From a virus: a stretch of DNA of 36,584 nt. A program made the translations under genes and the position numbers. Below the pieces are notes generated by a model, which saw only the letters and a list, made by a program, of their open reading frames with translations, was not told the DNA's origin and ran no database searches. Below, in pieces: positions 21,722-25,684 of this stretch. The stretch lies in IMG/VR virus record IMGVR_UViG_3300042429_000585, positions 1 through 36,584 of that record. One strand, 5' to 3'. Numbering within the stretch: position 1 is the first letter of the stretch; every line of letters begins with the position of its first letter.

Positions 21722-21758
21722 GACATATGGCTATTAGCCATTAGTTATATGAAATGCC
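21722..21758 (-). repeat. attC-like site A, degenerate end of the array
   Basis: Minus strand reads GGCATTTCATATAAC, then TAATG, then the small hairpin GCT-AAT-AGC and CATATGTC. The first part is the AAC core of the methyltransferase cassette and pairs 14 of 15 with that cassette's other end at 22535-22549. The 5-nt spacer is as in other sites, but the stem is short and no GTT core follows, so this looks like a worn-out or array-terminal site. Confidence 0.6.
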
Positions 21759-21821
21759 TTGCCGACCGCTTCCAATTGAAGTTCCGTGAAGGAAAAACAA
21801 AAAGAAAAAGCCACCGCACTT

Positions 21822-22472
21822 TTAAAATAACGTAGTTTGTTGTTTGTATTCATTAAATTTCTCTATTCCTTTGGTATAATACTCAGGGTCTATTTCACAA
21901 ATATCTAAATCAAAATCCTCTTTATCGCAAGCCCTCGCAATAGTCATACTGCCACCGTGTGTATCGAGTATTTTCATACCTTTTTCAGCAAACAGCAATA
22001 ATGTTTTTCTATACAAATCAATCGGTTTTTGAGTTGGGTGTGTTTTTTCATCCACCACGCTTGTTTTGCCTTGTAAGTTGCCATAATATCGGTAATCAAT
22101 ACACACGGCAGGTTTTTTAAAAGAAGTCCAAGCAAGCTCCCCATCTGCAAAATTTGGCACAGGGTTTTGTTTATACCAAAAAATGAAGCATTGTGTAGGC
22201 GGCAAGTCAAAGTAATTACCGCCCCAAATGATTTGATTTTTACTTACTCTAAATAATTGCTCAAAATATTCATCTGTTGGTATTCCTTTATCCCAGTCTT
22301 TTTTACCGTTTTTCGTGTATCGTTCCTTTACTTTAATTCCGCTACTTCCACGCTCATAATCACTAAAACCTATTCCATAAGGTGGGTCAACTATTGCCAA
22401 ATCGTAATGATTGTCAGGTTTAGTTTTCATAAACTCAATGCAATCAATATTGTAAAATTTTATTTCTGCCAT
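21822..22472 (-). CDS. DNA N6-adenine/N4-cytosine methyltransferase (cassette gene)
   Basis: 216 residues. Motif IV VDPPYGI near residue 29, then IIWGGNYFDLPP, HPTQKP near 158 and the AdoMet-binding motif ILDTHGGSMTIARAC near 183 give the motif order of beta-class methyltransferases. The C-terminal TTLF end is typical for such enzymes. No restriction enzyme gene lies near it, so it is an orphan that could protect phage DNA or alter expression. It is in the last cassette (21744-22549); 70 nt of non-coding DNA separate its stop from the AAC core. Confidence 0.92.
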   Translation of the reverse strand: MAEIKFYNIDCIEFMKTKPDNHYDLAIVDPPYGIGFSDYERGSSGIKVKERYTKNGKKDWDKGIPTDEYFEQLFRVSKNQIIWGGNYFDLPPTQCFIFWYKQNPVPNFADGELAWTSFKKPAVCIDYRYYGNLQGKTSVVDEKTHPTQKPIDLYRKTLLLFAEKGMKILDTHGGSMTIARACDKEDFDLDICEIDPEYYTKGIEKFNEYKQQTTLF

Positions 22473-22534
22473 CGCTTTTTTTTCTTTTTGTTTTTTTGTT
22501 TAGTGTTCCAATTGCGGTTCATCGTAAATAAGTC

Positions 22535-22599
22535 GGCACTTCATATAACAGCGGTTTGGCGGCATTAAAACGACCGCCAAGCCGCCTACCGTTAGTGGC
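22535..22599 (-). repeat. attC-like site B
   Basis: Minus strand: GCCACTAAC - GGTAG - arm GCGGCTTGGCGG - 11-nt loop - arm CCGCCAAACCGC - T - GTTATATGAAGTGCC. The 12-bp stem has a single G-T type wobble. Separates the 136-aa gene (stop 5 nt away) from the methyltransferase cassette. Confidence 0.8.
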
Positions 22600-22603
22600 A
22601 AGG

Positions 22604-23014
22604 CTATGATAGCACCCAACTTATAGACTTTATCCAGTATTCAAATTGTTCTTCTTGCTTTTTGGCTTCTGATATTTCTAAAGGACATGCATCTGATGAT
22701 CTTTGCCAAAACATATGAAGTAAATCACCGATAGGTTTATCAGTAACGTGCAGTCCTACACTACTATCTTTGAAGTGCTTTAAATGCTTTATATGTTCTT
22801 CTTTTGATTCAATGTCAAATTTTAATTTTTTAATTCTTTTTTCATCATATTGTTTTTGATAAACAAGTATTTCTAAAATTTTATAAACATCGTTTAAATT
22901 AATATTTCTGATGATTTCATCAACTATACATTCTTGACTTTCATTATCAAAAGCACTTTCTAAAATTTCATAAATATTTTCATTGAATTTTGACTGCTTG
23001 TTAAATATTTCCAT
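22604..23014 (-). CDS. Unknown protein (136 aa), cassette gene
   Basis: Helical, with IYEILESAFDNESQECIVDEI at the N-terminus (split by a turn), a long Lys/Glu coiled coil at 55-80 (EKRIKKLKFDIESKEEHIKH) and a Trp-containing C-terminus (YWIKSISWVLS). No family recognised. It is alone in its cassette (22591-23049); the stop codon lies 5 nt before the AAC core of site B and the ATG 35 nt after the GTT core of site C. Such unknown single-gene cargo is what integron cassettes usually carry. Confidence 0.75.
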   Translation of the reverse strand: MEIFNKQSKFNENIYEILESAFDNESQECIVDEIIRNINLNDVYKILEILVYQKQYDEKRIKKLKFDIESKEEHIKHLKHFKDSSVGLHVTDKPIGDLLHMFWQRSSDACPLEISEAKKQEEQFEYWIKSISWVLS

Positions 23015-23040
23015 TTTATCTAATTTTGTGAGAAAGCCCA

Positions 23041-23135
23041 GCCACTAACAGCAAGTAAGCAATAGTGCAGAAACATTCTCGGTTAATAATTTATTTATCG
23101 TAAGCACCATCGCTTACTTGCAAAACGTTATGCGT
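23041..23135 (-). repeat. attC-like site C
   Basis: Minus strand: ACGCATAAC - GTTTT - arm GCAAGTAAGC - 51-nt loop - arm GCTTACTTGC - T - GTTAGTGGC. The 10-bp stem is perfect. Its GTT side pairs with the AAC side of site B (9 of 9) and its AAC side with the GTT side of site D (9 of 9). The upstream gene's TGA overlaps the core. Confidence 0.85.
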
Positions 23136-23560
23136 CAGGCTAAAAGACCGTTCCACCTTAACATATTACCGACAACAGTCCAATCAACAAATGGACGTTC
23201 TGCATATTCTTTATCGTGTATTAACGGACAACCAAGTGCAGCATCATCAATATACATTTGAGCATAAGCCTTTGGGCTTGTAGTCCAAGTGTGTTGAGTT
23301 GGATTAGTTTGTATTCCGTAAAGTGGTATTTCATTTTCTTTGAACCAATTAACGGCATCGGTTAAATAGTTCCCACTTTCAAGGTGTAATTCGTTATCCT
23401 CACCAGTAGGATTAACTATATCACTTCGCATTGTGAATAAGACTAATTGGTGTCCATTTTCAACTAATGCTTTTAATACAGGAACGGCTTTTATATCCTT
23501 TCCTACTTTTGGAAATTCGTGAGTTACACACGTTCCATCAAAATCAATTGCTATTATCAT
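23135..23560 (-). CDS. HAD-superfamily phosphatase (BT0820-like), cassette gene
   Basis: 141 residues from ATG at 23560; the in-frame extension upstream starts with TTG and reads through the attC-like site. HAD motif I is AIDFDGT with the two catalytic Asp at residues 6 and 8, motif II LVLFTMRS, motif III Lys around KAYAQM, and motif IV YIDDAALG, with the C-terminal VDWTVVGNML. This is the small HAD hydrolase family typified by Bacteroides BT0820. Substrate unknown; nucleotide or sugar phosphates are possible. Lone gene of cassette 23127-23604, and its TGA overlaps the AAC core of site C. Confidence 0.88.
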   Translation of the reverse strand: MIIAIDFDGTCVTHEFPKVGKDIKAVPVLKALVENGHQLVLFTMRSDIVNPTGEDNELHLESGNYLTDAVNWFKENEIPLYGIQTNPTQHTWTTSPKAYAQMYIDDAALGCPLIHDKEYAERPFVDWTVVGNMLRWNGLLA

Positions 23561-23595
23561 ATTTTTTAAATTTAATTCGTTAAACAAAAGCCCGA

Positions 23596-23732
23596 ACGCA
23601 TAACAAGGGTTTGTAGCAATAGGGGCAGAAGTGCAAGTTTTGAGCCTTATTACTTCTATTGGGCTTTGGTGCTATATTGAACAGTAGTGCTATAAATCCC
23701 CTACTGCTACAAGCCCCGATACGTTGTGCGTA
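23596..23732 (-). repeat. attC-like site D
   Basis: Minus strand: GCATTACGCACAAC - GTATC - a 20-nt arm (23698-23717, GGGGCTTGTAGC...) - 72-nt loop - a 19-nt arm (23607-23625) - TT - GTTATGCGT. The arms pair over 19 positions with one bulged G and G-T wobbles, like the extrahelical base of integron attC sites. The GTTATGC core is a classic attC core. Confidence 0.85.
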
Positions 23733-23735
23733 ATG

Positions 23736-24062
23736 CTAAGAAACATCCTGCTCAACTTCATAATCCCGATTTAATTTAGATAATAGTTTTTGAATTGAAT
23801 CATCTGGAAGTTTTTCAAAAAGTCGTTCAATTAACGAACTACTATCAAATTCACGTTCTCTATAATCAATCAAATCGTCTAATACTCTAACAATTTGTTC
23901 AATTACATCTGTGTTTATATCTCTTTTAGGTGGTTTTGAAAAATCATTTTTCCCATTCTCTAATTTTGGATATATGCGTTCTTCTATATCTTCCTCTACA
24001 TTTACATTTTCAGCTTTGAAAACTAAATAATAGCCATAATTTCTTTTTACTGATATTTCCAT
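23736..24062 (-). CDS. Unknown protein (108 aa), cassette gene
   Basis: Start ATG at 24062. A longer reading to 24200 would translate the attC-like site E hairpin and is rejected. N-terminal beta strands (MEISVKRNYGYYLVFKAEN) and a helical C-terminus with IEQIVRVLDDLIDYREREFD and IERLFEKLPDDSIQKLLSKL. Acidic overall. No family recognised. Cassette 23723-24092; 30 nt leader after the GTT core. Confidence 0.75.
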   Translation of the reverse strand: MEISVKRNYGYYLVFKAENVNVEEDIEERIYPKLENGKNDFSKPPKRDINTDVIEQIVRVLDDLIDYREREFDSSSLIERLFEKLPDDSIQKLLSKLNRDYEVEQDVS

Positions 24063-24082
24063 TGTTTTGATTATTAAAGCAC

Positions 24083-24222
24083 TACGCACAACATGCAATA
24101 TAAAACATGCTGGGTTTCGTGCGGTTATTATTCTTTTTCTCTCGTTTCTAAGTTCGTGCTGTTCGATAGTTTCGTGCTTCGTAATCCAGCACGATTTCAT
24201 ATTGCCATCCGTTAGTACTAAC
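24083..24222 (-). repeat. attC-like site E
   Basis: Minus strand: GTTAGTACTAAC - GGATG - arm at 24186-24205 (GCAATATGAAATCG...) - 72-nt loop - arm at 24095-24113 (...TTTTATATTGC) - AT - GTTGTGCGTA. Arms pair over 19 positions with one bulged base. The AAC side merges into the 43-bp mini-cassette next to it. Confidence 0.8.
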
Positions 24223-24253
24223 CCTAAACGGGTCGCTATCGCTTACTACTAAC
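24211..24253 (-). repeat. Gene-less mini-cassette 2
   Basis: 43 bp between the AAC core of site E and the GTT core of site F. It starts GTTAGTAGTAA and ends TTAGTACTAAC (10 of 11 complementary), enclosing GCGATAGCGACC and TTTAGG. A close copy lies at 24984-25023. Confidence 0.7.
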
Positions 24254-24574
24254 CCACGATAGGCAATATAAAAAGAAAACTTTAAGAGTTCGCTTCGTCT
24301 ATAATCTGCTCTATCAAATCTTCAAATTCGTGTTCTAAACTTTCACAATGTTCACAGTCACATTCTCCATTAAATCTGAAACTTTCTACAGTTTCTACAA
24401 TACAACCTTGTGCCTTATAATAAGCAATTTGTAATTTAGTTTCTGCATCTAAAAAATCTTCATTTATACCTGTGAAAATCCTTCCATTTTTACAACTTAT
24501 CGTTATCATCTTTTCGTCTTTAATTTACATTAGTGTTTTCTTTTTCCATCGCCTATCGCTGTCCGTTAGTAGGC
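24243..24574 (-). repeat. attC-like site F, arms flanking a gene
   Basis: 5' part at 24548-24574: GCCTACTAAC - GGACA - arm GCGATAGGCGAT. 3' part at 24243-24267: arm ATTGCCTATCGT - GG - GTTAGTAGTAA. The arms pair over 12 positions (wobbles allowed), but the whole 24282-24509 gene lies between them, in the place of the usual hairpin loop. Confidence 0.65.
24282..24509 (-). CDS. Small acidic Cys-rich protein (75 aa), inside site F arms
   Basis: Starts MITISCKNGRIFTGINEDF, has a CDCEHC cluster at about 51-56 (ECDCEHCESLEHEFEDL) that could bind zinc, and ends in an acidic helix (LIEQIIDEANS). No family recognised. It has 36 nt of leader after the hairpin arm and no promoter of its own. Confidence 0.7.
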   Translation of the reverse strand: MITISCKNGRIFTGINEDFLDAETKLQIAYYKAQGCIVETVESFRFNGECDCEHCESLEHEFEDLIEQIIDEANS

Positions 24575-24892
24575 ATTTGGAACGTACTCATCCAAATCTT
24601 CATTATTCCAATCCCAATAAAATACTTCCCAATAACCATTCAATGAGTATCCCATATCTCTATATAACTTTCTATACACTTCTGAATTTTTGTCGTAACC
24701 TAAACACTTTAAAAGAGGACATAAATCATTTAAAGAAATATTTTTAAGAAAGTGTTGTACATCTTTGTTTTCTTTCCACCTTAAAATTCCATTTTCATCT
24801 TCAATAATTATATGATTATGATGAGTTTCTTTGTCTAAAATTAACCTATAATTTTCAACTGTAATTTCTTCTCTATTTACTTCTTTTAACAT
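24566..24892 (-). CDS. Unknown protein (108 aa), cassette gene
   Basis: N-terminal part with strands (EITVENYRLILDKETHHNH) and an alpha/beta C-terminus with many aromatics (YRKLYRDMGYSLNGYWEVFY, then WDWNNEDLDEYVP). Isoelectric character acidic. No family recognised. Occupies cassette 24565-24932, with its TAA stop inside the AAC core of site F and the start 31 nt after the GTT core of site G. Confidence 0.75.
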   Translation of the reverse strand: MLKEVNREEITVENYRLILDKETHHNHIIIEDENGILRWKENKDVQHFLKNISLNDLCPLLKCLGYDKNSEVYRKLYRDMGYSLNGYWEVFYWDWNNEDLDEYVPNAY

Positions 24893-24922
24893 ATACTTTT
24901 AAATTTACTGTGTGAATAAAAC

Positions 24923-24994
24923 GCCTACTAACAGCACCTATACGCAATTACGTACTTTGTTTAGGTGCGTATAGTTGCAAAACGTTAGTAGTAA
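24923..24994 (-). repeat. attC-like site G
   Basis: Minus strand: TTACTACTAAC - GTTTT - arm GCAACTATACGC - 21-nt loop - arm GCGTATAGGTGC - T - GTTAGTAGGC. Stem pairs at 11 of 12 positions. The GTT side is perfectly complementary (10 bases) to the AAC side of site F. Confidence 0.85.
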
Positions 24995-25023
24995 CCTAAA
25001 GGTCGCTATCGCTTACTACTAAC
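24984..25023 (-). repeat. Gene-less mini-cassette 1
   Basis: 40 bp, GTTAGTAGTAA ... TTACTACTAAC with perfectly complementary 11-nt ends around GCGATAGCGACC-TTTAGG. Near-copy of 24211-24253. Confidence 0.7.
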
Positions 25024-25368
25024 ACACGATAAGCAATATAATTAAGGCTTAGATGGTGCTTCGATTAAAGCAAAATGAGTAACTCTACATAAATCGCCTT
25101 CTAAATCATATCCTTCATAAAATCCATTTTCATTAAAATCAAATGTAGTTCTATGAGTTAATGGATAAATATCTATATGACTTTCTTTATAATGAATAGC
25201 TCTTTGAAATCTACTACACTCTTCATCATTTAAGTTATGTTGCCAAATTAATATATTTCCTTTAGGTTGAATTTTGTCTATTTCTCTAATATCAATCCAA
25301 TTCATCTTTTCTAATTTTTAGTTACTTAATCGCCTTAATTACATCGCCTATCGCTGTCCGTTATTTTA
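25013..25368 (-). repeat. attC-like site H, arms flanking a gene
   Basis: 5' part at 25343-25368: TAAAATAAC - GGACA - arm GCGATAGGCGAT. 3' part at 25013-25037: arm ATTGCTTATCGT - GT - GTTAGTAGTAA. Arms pair over 12 positions with wobbles; gene 25042-25305 lies between them. Both parts closely match site F. This is the upstream end of the array. Confidence 0.65.
25042..25305 (-). CDS. DUF551-like protein (87 aa), inside site H arms
   Basis: Starts MNWIDIREIDKIQPKGNILI and ends CRVTHFALIEAPSKP, which recalls the W-I-x-V-x-x-x-x-P-x-x-G ... V-T-H-W-x-P-L-P-E-P-P layout of DUF551 phage proteins (moderate confidence). Beta-rich with aromatic residues in the middle. Function unknown. Leader of 37 nt after the hairpin arm. 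Confidence 0.7.
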   Translation of the reverse strand: MNWIDIREIDKIQPKGNILIWQHNLNDEECSRFQRAIHYKESHIDIYPLTHRTTFDFNENGFYEGYDLEGDLCRVTHFALIEAPSKP

Positions 25369-25684
25369 TAACTTTAACTTTTACATAAATTACTCCTGTT
25401 TTTAATTCTGCTATTCGTTTAAACGCACCTTTCGACAAATCGATTGTATACTTAGACATTGCTCCTTTGTCATTAATTCGTACAATAACACTCTTTCCGT
25501 TTTCTTTATTCGTTACCTTCAATTTAGTGCCTATTGGAAAATGATTACTCGCAGCTGTCATTTTATTCATATCAAACTTTTCTCCAGAAAATGTAACTTG
25601 GTCATTGAATTCCTCACCATACCAAGTAGCATTGAAAGTAAAGGACGTTAGAAACAACGCCCCTATTAAGATTAATTTTTTCAT
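25361..25684 (-). CDS. Secreted RlpA-like double-psi beta-barrel protein
   Basis: 107 residues. Signal peptide MKKLILIGALFLTSFTFNA, with no lipobox Cys, then ATWYGEEFNDQVTFSGEKFD - MTAASNHFPIGTKLKVTN - SVIVRINDKGAMSKYTIDLS - AFKRIAELKTGVIYVKV, the RlpA/DPBB pattern including the conserved Asp of RINDKG. RlpA-type proteins bind or cleave peptidoglycan denuded of stem peptides; whether this one is active is unclear. Its stop codon is part of the AAC core of site H. Periplasmic location inferred. Confidence 0.85.
   Translation of the reverse strand: MKKLILIGALFLTSFTFNATWYGEEFNDQVTFSGEKFDMNKMTAASNHFPIGTKLKVTNKENGKSVIVRINDKGAMSKYTIDLSKGAFKRIAELKTGVIYVKVKVIK

Follow-up and report, generated by a model that had tools for sequence, protein, structure and literature searches.

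Integrons are a known bacterial platform for the spread of resistance genes, and the evidence presented here indicates that phages run a version of their own. The window analysed, 36,584 nucleotides (nt) in length, spans an entire virus contig of 36.6 kb from IMG/VR (IMGVR_UViG_3300042429_000585), on which terminase and portal genes are present. Within it, the region between an RlpA-like gene and thyX (21744-25362, minus strand) is very probably an array in which seven mobile gene cassettes belong to an integron-like phage system. This reading rests on sequence comparison, namely on the anatomy of the array, the self-complementary ends of its cassettes, the breakpoints among related phages, the gain and loss of cassettes in the cultured Freya phages, and the linkage of array, recombinase and attI in other phages. 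On a broader scale, Bacteroidota phages from 40 kb to jumbo size quite probably own a complete gene-trading system of this type, comprising a recombinase without the IntI-specific domain, an attI site and phage-specific, mirror-image cassettes; integrase-less phages such as that of the window would carry cassettes and borrow the enzyme, and chromosomal relatives of the system would be widespread in Flavobacteriaceae, where the failure of their sites to fit the standard attC model would have kept them from notice.

In the proposed mechanism, a cassette would consist of a hairpin site plus the gene downstream of the hairpin. A tyrosine recombinase related to IntI and Xer would cut beside a 5-nt spacer, at AA^C on the gene strand and G^TT on the other, probably on a folded single strand. 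Excision would re-pair a cassette's own ends; re-insertion could then take place in the attI that adjoins the recombinase gene, in the site of another cassette, or wherever a TAA^C resembles attI, for example in a stop codon. For the window phage, the recombinase would be supplied in trans, either by a co-infecting phage or by the related platform of a Flavobacteriia host.

Exactly seven sites are found on the minus strand of the window, and they split the locus into seven units. All share one plan, in which AAC is separated by exactly 5 nt from a hairpin whose stem of about 12-20 bp encloses a loop, and 1-2 nt lie between the hairpin and GTT; the AAC-side spacer is 5 nt in 7/7 and the GTT-side spacer 1 or 2 nt, and all the motifs that an initial annotation, made from the sequence alone, had placed here are present. 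Both ends of each unit pair with each other, as in GTTANNNNNNGTN with NATNNNNNNTAAC; the paired stretch is about 13 bp long and has a G.T pair at its position 11. Two of the sites hold a small open reading frame (ORF) inside the hairpin loop (87 and 75 amino acids, aa), and after each comes an ORF-free unit of 40-43 nt. The cargo comprises one DNA methyltransferase, one HAD-like phosphatase and five small unknown proteins, which are probably accessory genes useful against particular hosts. A distinct recombinase and inverted cassettes would let phages trade methyltransferases and many unknown genes, offering a mechanism for modular gene exchange and a large pool of candidate anti-defence genes. 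The features of the locus are as follows; sequences used for comparison are cited by our own L numbers.

25021..25362, minus strand: attC-like site 1 (AAC end 25360, GTT start 25023); the stop codon TAA of RlpA and the C after it make up the AAC, the spacer GGACA is followed by a long stem, and GTT lies at 25023; L078 has the same site with another ORF
25042-25305, minus strand: 87-aa ORF in the loop of site 1
24985..25360, minus strand: unit 1 (AA^C to AA^C), made up of the hairpin of site 1, which contains the 87-aa ORF, and 40 nt running from R' to R'' (25023-24984)
24930..24986, minus strand: attC-like site 2 (AAC end 24984, GTT start 24932), AAC-GTTTT-GCAACTATACGCA...TGCGTATAGGTGC-T-GTT
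24566..24984, minus strand: unit 2, site 2 plus a 108-aa ORF (24566-24892) with its stop codon TAA at the junction; the 368-nt GTT..AAC part is 99.2% identical in L107/L109, with other flanks
24251..24567, minus strand: attC-like site 3 (AAC end 24565, GTT start 24253), spacer GGACA, loop holding the 75-aa ORF (24282-24509)
24212..24565, minus strand: unit 3, the hairpin holding the 75-aa ORF and 43 nt running from R' to R'' (24253-24211); L083 matches over 359 nt at 92.8%, AAC to AAC, with other flanks
24090..24213, minus strand: attC-like site 4 (AAC end 24211, GTT start 24092), AAC-GGATG-GCAATAT...ATATTGC-AT-GTT
23724..24211, minus strand: unit 4, site 4 plus a 108-aa ORF (23736-24062), ends GTTGTGCGTAGTG / CATTACGCACAAC; the protein has a homologue in the uncultured phage LR756504
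23602..23725, minus strand: attC-like site 5 (AAC end 23723, GTT start 23604), AAC-GTATC-GGGGCTTGTAGCAGTAGGGG...CCCCTATTGCTACAAACCCT-T-GTT
23128..23723, minus strand: unit 5, site 5 plus the HAD-like phosphatase ORF (23135-23560, BT0820-like); NCBIfam NF046079 E 4.5e-19, below the cut-off of that model
23047..23129, minus strand: attC-like site 6 (AAC end 23127, GTT start 23049), AAC-GTTTT-GCAAGTAAGCGATGGTGC...GCACTATTGCTTACTTGC-T-GTT
22592..23127, minus strand: unit 6, site 6 plus a 136-aa ORF (22604-23014); the 459-nt GTT..AAC part is 98.5% identical in L120, with other flanks
22547..22593, minus strand: attC-like site 7 (AAC end 22591, GTT start 22549), AAC-GGTAG-GCGGCTTGGCGGT...GCCGCCAAACCGC-T-GTT
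21745..22591, minus strand: unit 7, site 7 plus an N6/N4 DNA methyltransferase ORF (21822-22472; Pfam PF01555 E 1.6e-10); ends pair 12.5/13
21744..21746, minus strand: AAC that closes the array and serves as R'' of unit 7, then phage backbone TAATGGCTAATAGCCATATG, then thyX
25361..25684, minus strand: RlpA-like gene (DPBB_1), whose stop codon TAA makes the insertion point TAA^C; thyX is directly next to it in L002-L004
21006..21662, minus strand: thyX, phage gene flanking the array (Pfam PF02511 E 1.3e-45)

A strict search for exact 7-bp stems at 5 / 1-2 nt recovered 4 sites in the window, against a mean of 0.25 and a maximum of 2 in 200 dinucleotide shuffles, and self-complementary unit ends (6-mers) numbered 5 against a mean of 0.9 in dinucleotide shuffles. 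Across 17 viral contigs, the heat map of spacer lengths peaked at 5/1 (39) and 5/2 (11), the reversed control giving 1 and 2. The complementary, cassette-specific ends described in the initial annotation were borne out in 41 cassettes, where a cassette's own ends paired at 6.95 of 10 positions, compared to 3.88 of 10 across junctions. Folded as DNA, a site together with the R'' of its own unit gave one unbroken stem that bulges by about 4 nt on one side only, and this fold was more stable than that of the array junction, clearly so at most sites (-26.4 vs -19.6 kcal/mol in one example). An Rfam search of the window array returned nothing above threshold.

The content of the locus varies among related phages. 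Three relatives with a terminase about 99% identical to that of the window (L004, L005, L006) have no array between RlpA and thyX, and thyX starts within a few bases of RlpA in L002-L004; in other relatives this position, or one close by, is occupied by different units. The array of L078 also starts at the RlpA stop codon (TAA^C), with another ORF in its first loop, and that of L104 starts at the thyX stop codon. L083 and L088, which are 95-97% alike, differ in a stretch between two AACs. Near-identical copies of window cassettes stand in other contexts in other phages, namely those of the 136-aa gene (L120), the 108-aa gene at 24566 (L107/L109), the 75-aa gene (L083) and the HAD gene, for which unit 5 including its upstream hairpin is common to L157 (94.7%) and L158 (92.3%) with AAC breakpoints on both sides. 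Viral contigs yielded few relatives of the 136-aa and 75-aa cassette proteins and many of the HAD protein; in the 636-kb phage LR756504, which has a homologue of the 108-aa protein, no array was found around that homologue within the stretch inspected.

In the recurring cassettes, homology ends at the AAC after the gene, the next hairpin not being common; on the upstream side the hairpin is usually included, with homology reaching back to the preceding AAC. Moreover, an unbiased scan of alignment ends in all viral loci placed 56 at AAC and 9 at GTT, compared to 1 and 5 for random positions. The crossover is predicted to fall beside the 5-nt spacer, at AA^C as read on the gene strand and at G^TT as read on its complement, and so the mobile cassette would be the hairpin with its downstream gene, its ORFs opposite to the usual integron polarity. 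A crossover at the gene-strand GTT was rejected, as downstream hairpins were not common and alignment ends showed no enrichment at GTT. The presence and absence in related phages anticipated by the initial annotation, with breakpoints inside G^TT, was thus found down to single-base breakpoints, but at AA^C beside the 5-nt spacer and not at the gene-strand GTT; the contrary outcome it had named, a fixed block of genes with no breakpoints and no recombinase link, is not what the related phages show. The stop codon of thyX is TAA, followed by an AACGG junction, in one set of contigs and TGA in another (L014, L015, L016 vs L012, L017), a difference that represents another probable insertion at a stop codon.

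Gain and loss of cassettes can be followed in cultured phages. Freya_1 to Freya_10 are Polaribacter phages from the North Sea, isolated on one host (PMC8776804), and seven of these isolates were compared (Freya_1, 2, 5, 6, 8, 9 and 10; L450-L456). The backbones of Freya_1 and Freya_10 are base-for-base identical over 43,022 nt, the cassettes differing by 4.9 kb, and the remaining isolates lie 0-4 substitutions from the Freya_1/Freya_10 backbone. Just upstream of the integrase, cassettes of 842, 902, 472 and 307 nt were gained or lost at the junction of AAC and ACCCCTATAACA; the 902-nt cassette was also lost from inside the array, and all the changes are exact at AAC. To the authors of the isolation study, the integrase marks a potential for temperate life; integrons go unmentioned there (PMC8776804). 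A phage 'integrase' need not mean lysogeny, and the Freya phages constitute laboratory material for a direct test.

The integrase of the Freya phages is a relative, 38% identical, of a recombinase found in other array-bearing phages. Among the 29 array-bearing or related records examined first, a single one encoded a tyrosine recombinase, the 61.5-kb phage contig G006, which also carries a DNA polymerase, a DnaB-like helicase and a virion structural protein; between the last AAC of the G006 array and the start of the recombinase lie 53 nt. Used as a query, this protein retrieved 80 viral loci, the longest contig being 362 kb. In 78 of these loci, 333 sites were located upstream on the recombinase strand and 18 elsewhere, compared to 18 in the whole reversed control, with at least one upstream site in 69/78 and at least two in 56/78. 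An attI-like sequence, AAC followed by TATTATATATA, is conserved in 58/71 loci at a median of 51 nt before the recombinase start codon, and the sequence upstream of its TAAC is mostly variable, as expected of attI. In L401 and L413, with backbones 97% identical, the same 960-nt cassette (99.9%) is found at attI in the former and inside the array in the latter. As only 8/28 large contigs matched the single terminase model tried, the viral nature of these contigs rests mainly on IMG/VR. The 118 cassette ORFs from L367-L444 are mostly without Pfam match; about 8 encode DNA methyltransferases, and an RNA ligase, an exonuclease and a Lar-type restriction alleviation protein were found once each. 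On one 246-kb viral contig (IMGVR_UViG_3300025030_000041), two recombinases with arrays (L424 and L433) have a 234-nt cassette in common at 99%. A homologue of the window HAD gene is located between two sites of an array with its own recombinase on a 126.8-kb viral contig (L406, 3511-3954), which links the cassette pool of the window to recombinase-bearing phages.

Related recombinases with similar sites beside them were also present in Flavobacteriales genomes, such as Fluviicola chungangensis and Polaribacter sp. MSW5, and homologues of the MSW5 recombinase were found in 128/201 Flavobacteriaceae genomes. Sites were detected in 30/40 host loci, 103 of them 3' of the recombinase in one orientation and 7 elsewhere, the reversed control giving 6; marine host sites have spacers of 5-6/2-3. 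The search of host genomes proposed in the initial annotation therefore did reveal recombinase and sites in Flavobacteriaceae, with ORFs of the opposite polarity: ratios of same to opposite orientation of ORF and site were 93:1 and 219:10 in phages, compared to 5:116 and 1:19 in hosts. Phages would keep inverted cassettes because only that orientation, at TAA^C or beside their own attI, follows phage transcription. Breakpoints among unrelated host genomes were too few for use. In chromosomal loci (L257, L262, L298-L337; Flavobacteriaceae, Fluviicola), the recombinase lacks the IntI domain and has site arrays on its 3' side, and many of these recombinases are located at contig ends, as if the arrays broke assemblies.

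The likeness to class 1 and chromosomal integrons is extensive, including small genes between hairpin sites, cassette-specific self-complementary ends and a G^TT / AA^C core. The R''/R' and L''/L' arms form a hairpin with an AAC/GTT core and crossover in G^TT, and related phages, although not the window, which is without attI, have a tyrosine recombinase with an adjacent attI-like site where cassettes are gained and lost. However, the spacers are 5 and 1-2 (or 6 and 3) compared to the 5 and 6 read from class 1 attC, the bulge is one-sided with paired ends of about 13 bp, and the phage site is upstream of the ORF, not at its 3' end, whereas host platforms keep the usual polarity. The enzyme also differs. 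An IntI-specific domain near patch III is the criterion for an integron integrase (PMC9668308); it is absent in the aligned host and G006 recombinases, the stretch between motifs being 58 residues in the array-linked recombinase and 100 in IntI1. Against TIGR02249 (cut-off 265), array-linked recombinases scored 202, 189 and 140, compared to 508 for IntI1. They share catalytic domain and overall length with the models of XerC/XerD, archaeal XerA and integron integrase (TIGR02224/02225, NF040815, TIGR02249), and their closest solved structures by sequence are Xer-like 4a8e, XerA 5hxy and IntI4 2a3v; unlike XerC/XerD, they adjoin cassette arrays. In the tree they have a clade of their own, distinct from the chromosomal XerC and XerD encoded in the genomes where they occur (support 99/97), with IntI1 nearby in a placement that is insecure because of its long branch. 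The absence of the IntI-specific domain points to a sister system rather than a standard integron, and bears on how IntI gained its extra domain. As judged from sequence, the platform would work like an integron without being a standard one by the enzyme and site features tested, and its polarity in phages is also reversed. The initial annotation's identification as integron cassettes holds for mobility, integron likeness and self-complementary ends, but not for a standard integron, and its suggestion that the deviating spacers might denote a separate recombination system agrees with this result. The pdif modules of Acinetobacter are likewise small mobile gene modules associated with Xer-type recombinases. 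Their sites are short and double-stranded, with a 6-bp spacer, and are used by XerC/D; those described here are long hairpins with self-complementary cassette ends. No report of the phage platform, its inverted polarity or the recombinase family was found in the literature searched, which did not cover bioRxiv preprints.

Arrays of this kind could be taken for ordinary CALINs (clusters of attC sites lacking integrases, defined by two or more attC matches to a covariance model), in which cassettes come from a bacterial integron and are served by a standard IntI, and the window does have no integrase and seven sites, recognised by their anatomy. CALINs are known in virulent phages including Polaribacter phage P12002L, one attC of which recombined with IntI1 (PMC9892861), and the related phage P12002S has an array of the same style. 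The attC-like arrays without integrase in a Bacteroidota phage and the methyltransferase cassettes described there (Qi et al. 2023) resemble those of the window; a phage recombinase with attI, the crossover side and phage-phage cassette exchange are not among the findings for Bacteroidota phages in the parts examined of that study. The site geometry of 5/1-2 or 6/3, the ORF polarity reverse to that of host cassettes and linked recombinases without the IntI-specific domain and under the integron-integrase cut-off make this explanation quite improbable. Even harder to sustain, to the point of being hardly credible, is the proposal that the hairpins are transcription terminators or processing sites and that the genes spread by ordinary homologous recombination. 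The position of hairpins between co-directional genes, and some loop or leader sequences common to cassettes with different ORFs, would fit it, but the fixed 5-nt spacer, the distant pairing of unit ends, the AAC breakpoints, the linkage to recombinase and attI and the Freya cassettes gained or lost in otherwise identical backbones would be left unexplained.

It is also unlikely that the phage cassettes are moved only by the host Flavobacteriaceae recombinase, the phage recombinases being unrelated lysogeny integrases. Flavobacteriaceae commonly carry host platforms with sites of this type, the discoverers of the Freya phages took their integrase as a temperate sign (PMC8776804), and the window itself has no recombinase; in contrast, arrays abut the phage recombinase in most loci in a fixed orientation with a conserved attI-like sequence, and Freya cassettes change right beside the Freya recombinase. 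The initial annotation, in which the recombinase had to come from the host, was correct that the window has none, but many phages encode one next to such arrays.

Several observations weigh against an array of mobile, phage-serviced cassettes in the window. No tyrosine recombinase was found on the window contig, which may be incomplete, and the phage attI motif is absent at the end of the array, so that insertion there would use a secondary site. The site counts rest on one detector and include redundant contigs, and are thus not independent. Finally, the 136-aa and 108-aa (24566) genes are 98-99% identical elsewhere with a different upstream hairpin, for which a simple AAC-to-AAC move does not account; exchange at GTT as well, or hairpin conversion, may explain such hairpins beside near-identical genes.

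Two local comparisons concern these hairpins. Between window 24932-24984 and L107 264-322, the arms differ at many bases yet still pair, the adjacent gene being 99.2% identical, and this looks like hairpin replacement or conversion. Between window 23012-23132 and L118 10987-11106, the hairpin and the leader up to the start codon are common (92.6%) and the ORFs different, which suggests that the site-leader module may itself be exchanged.

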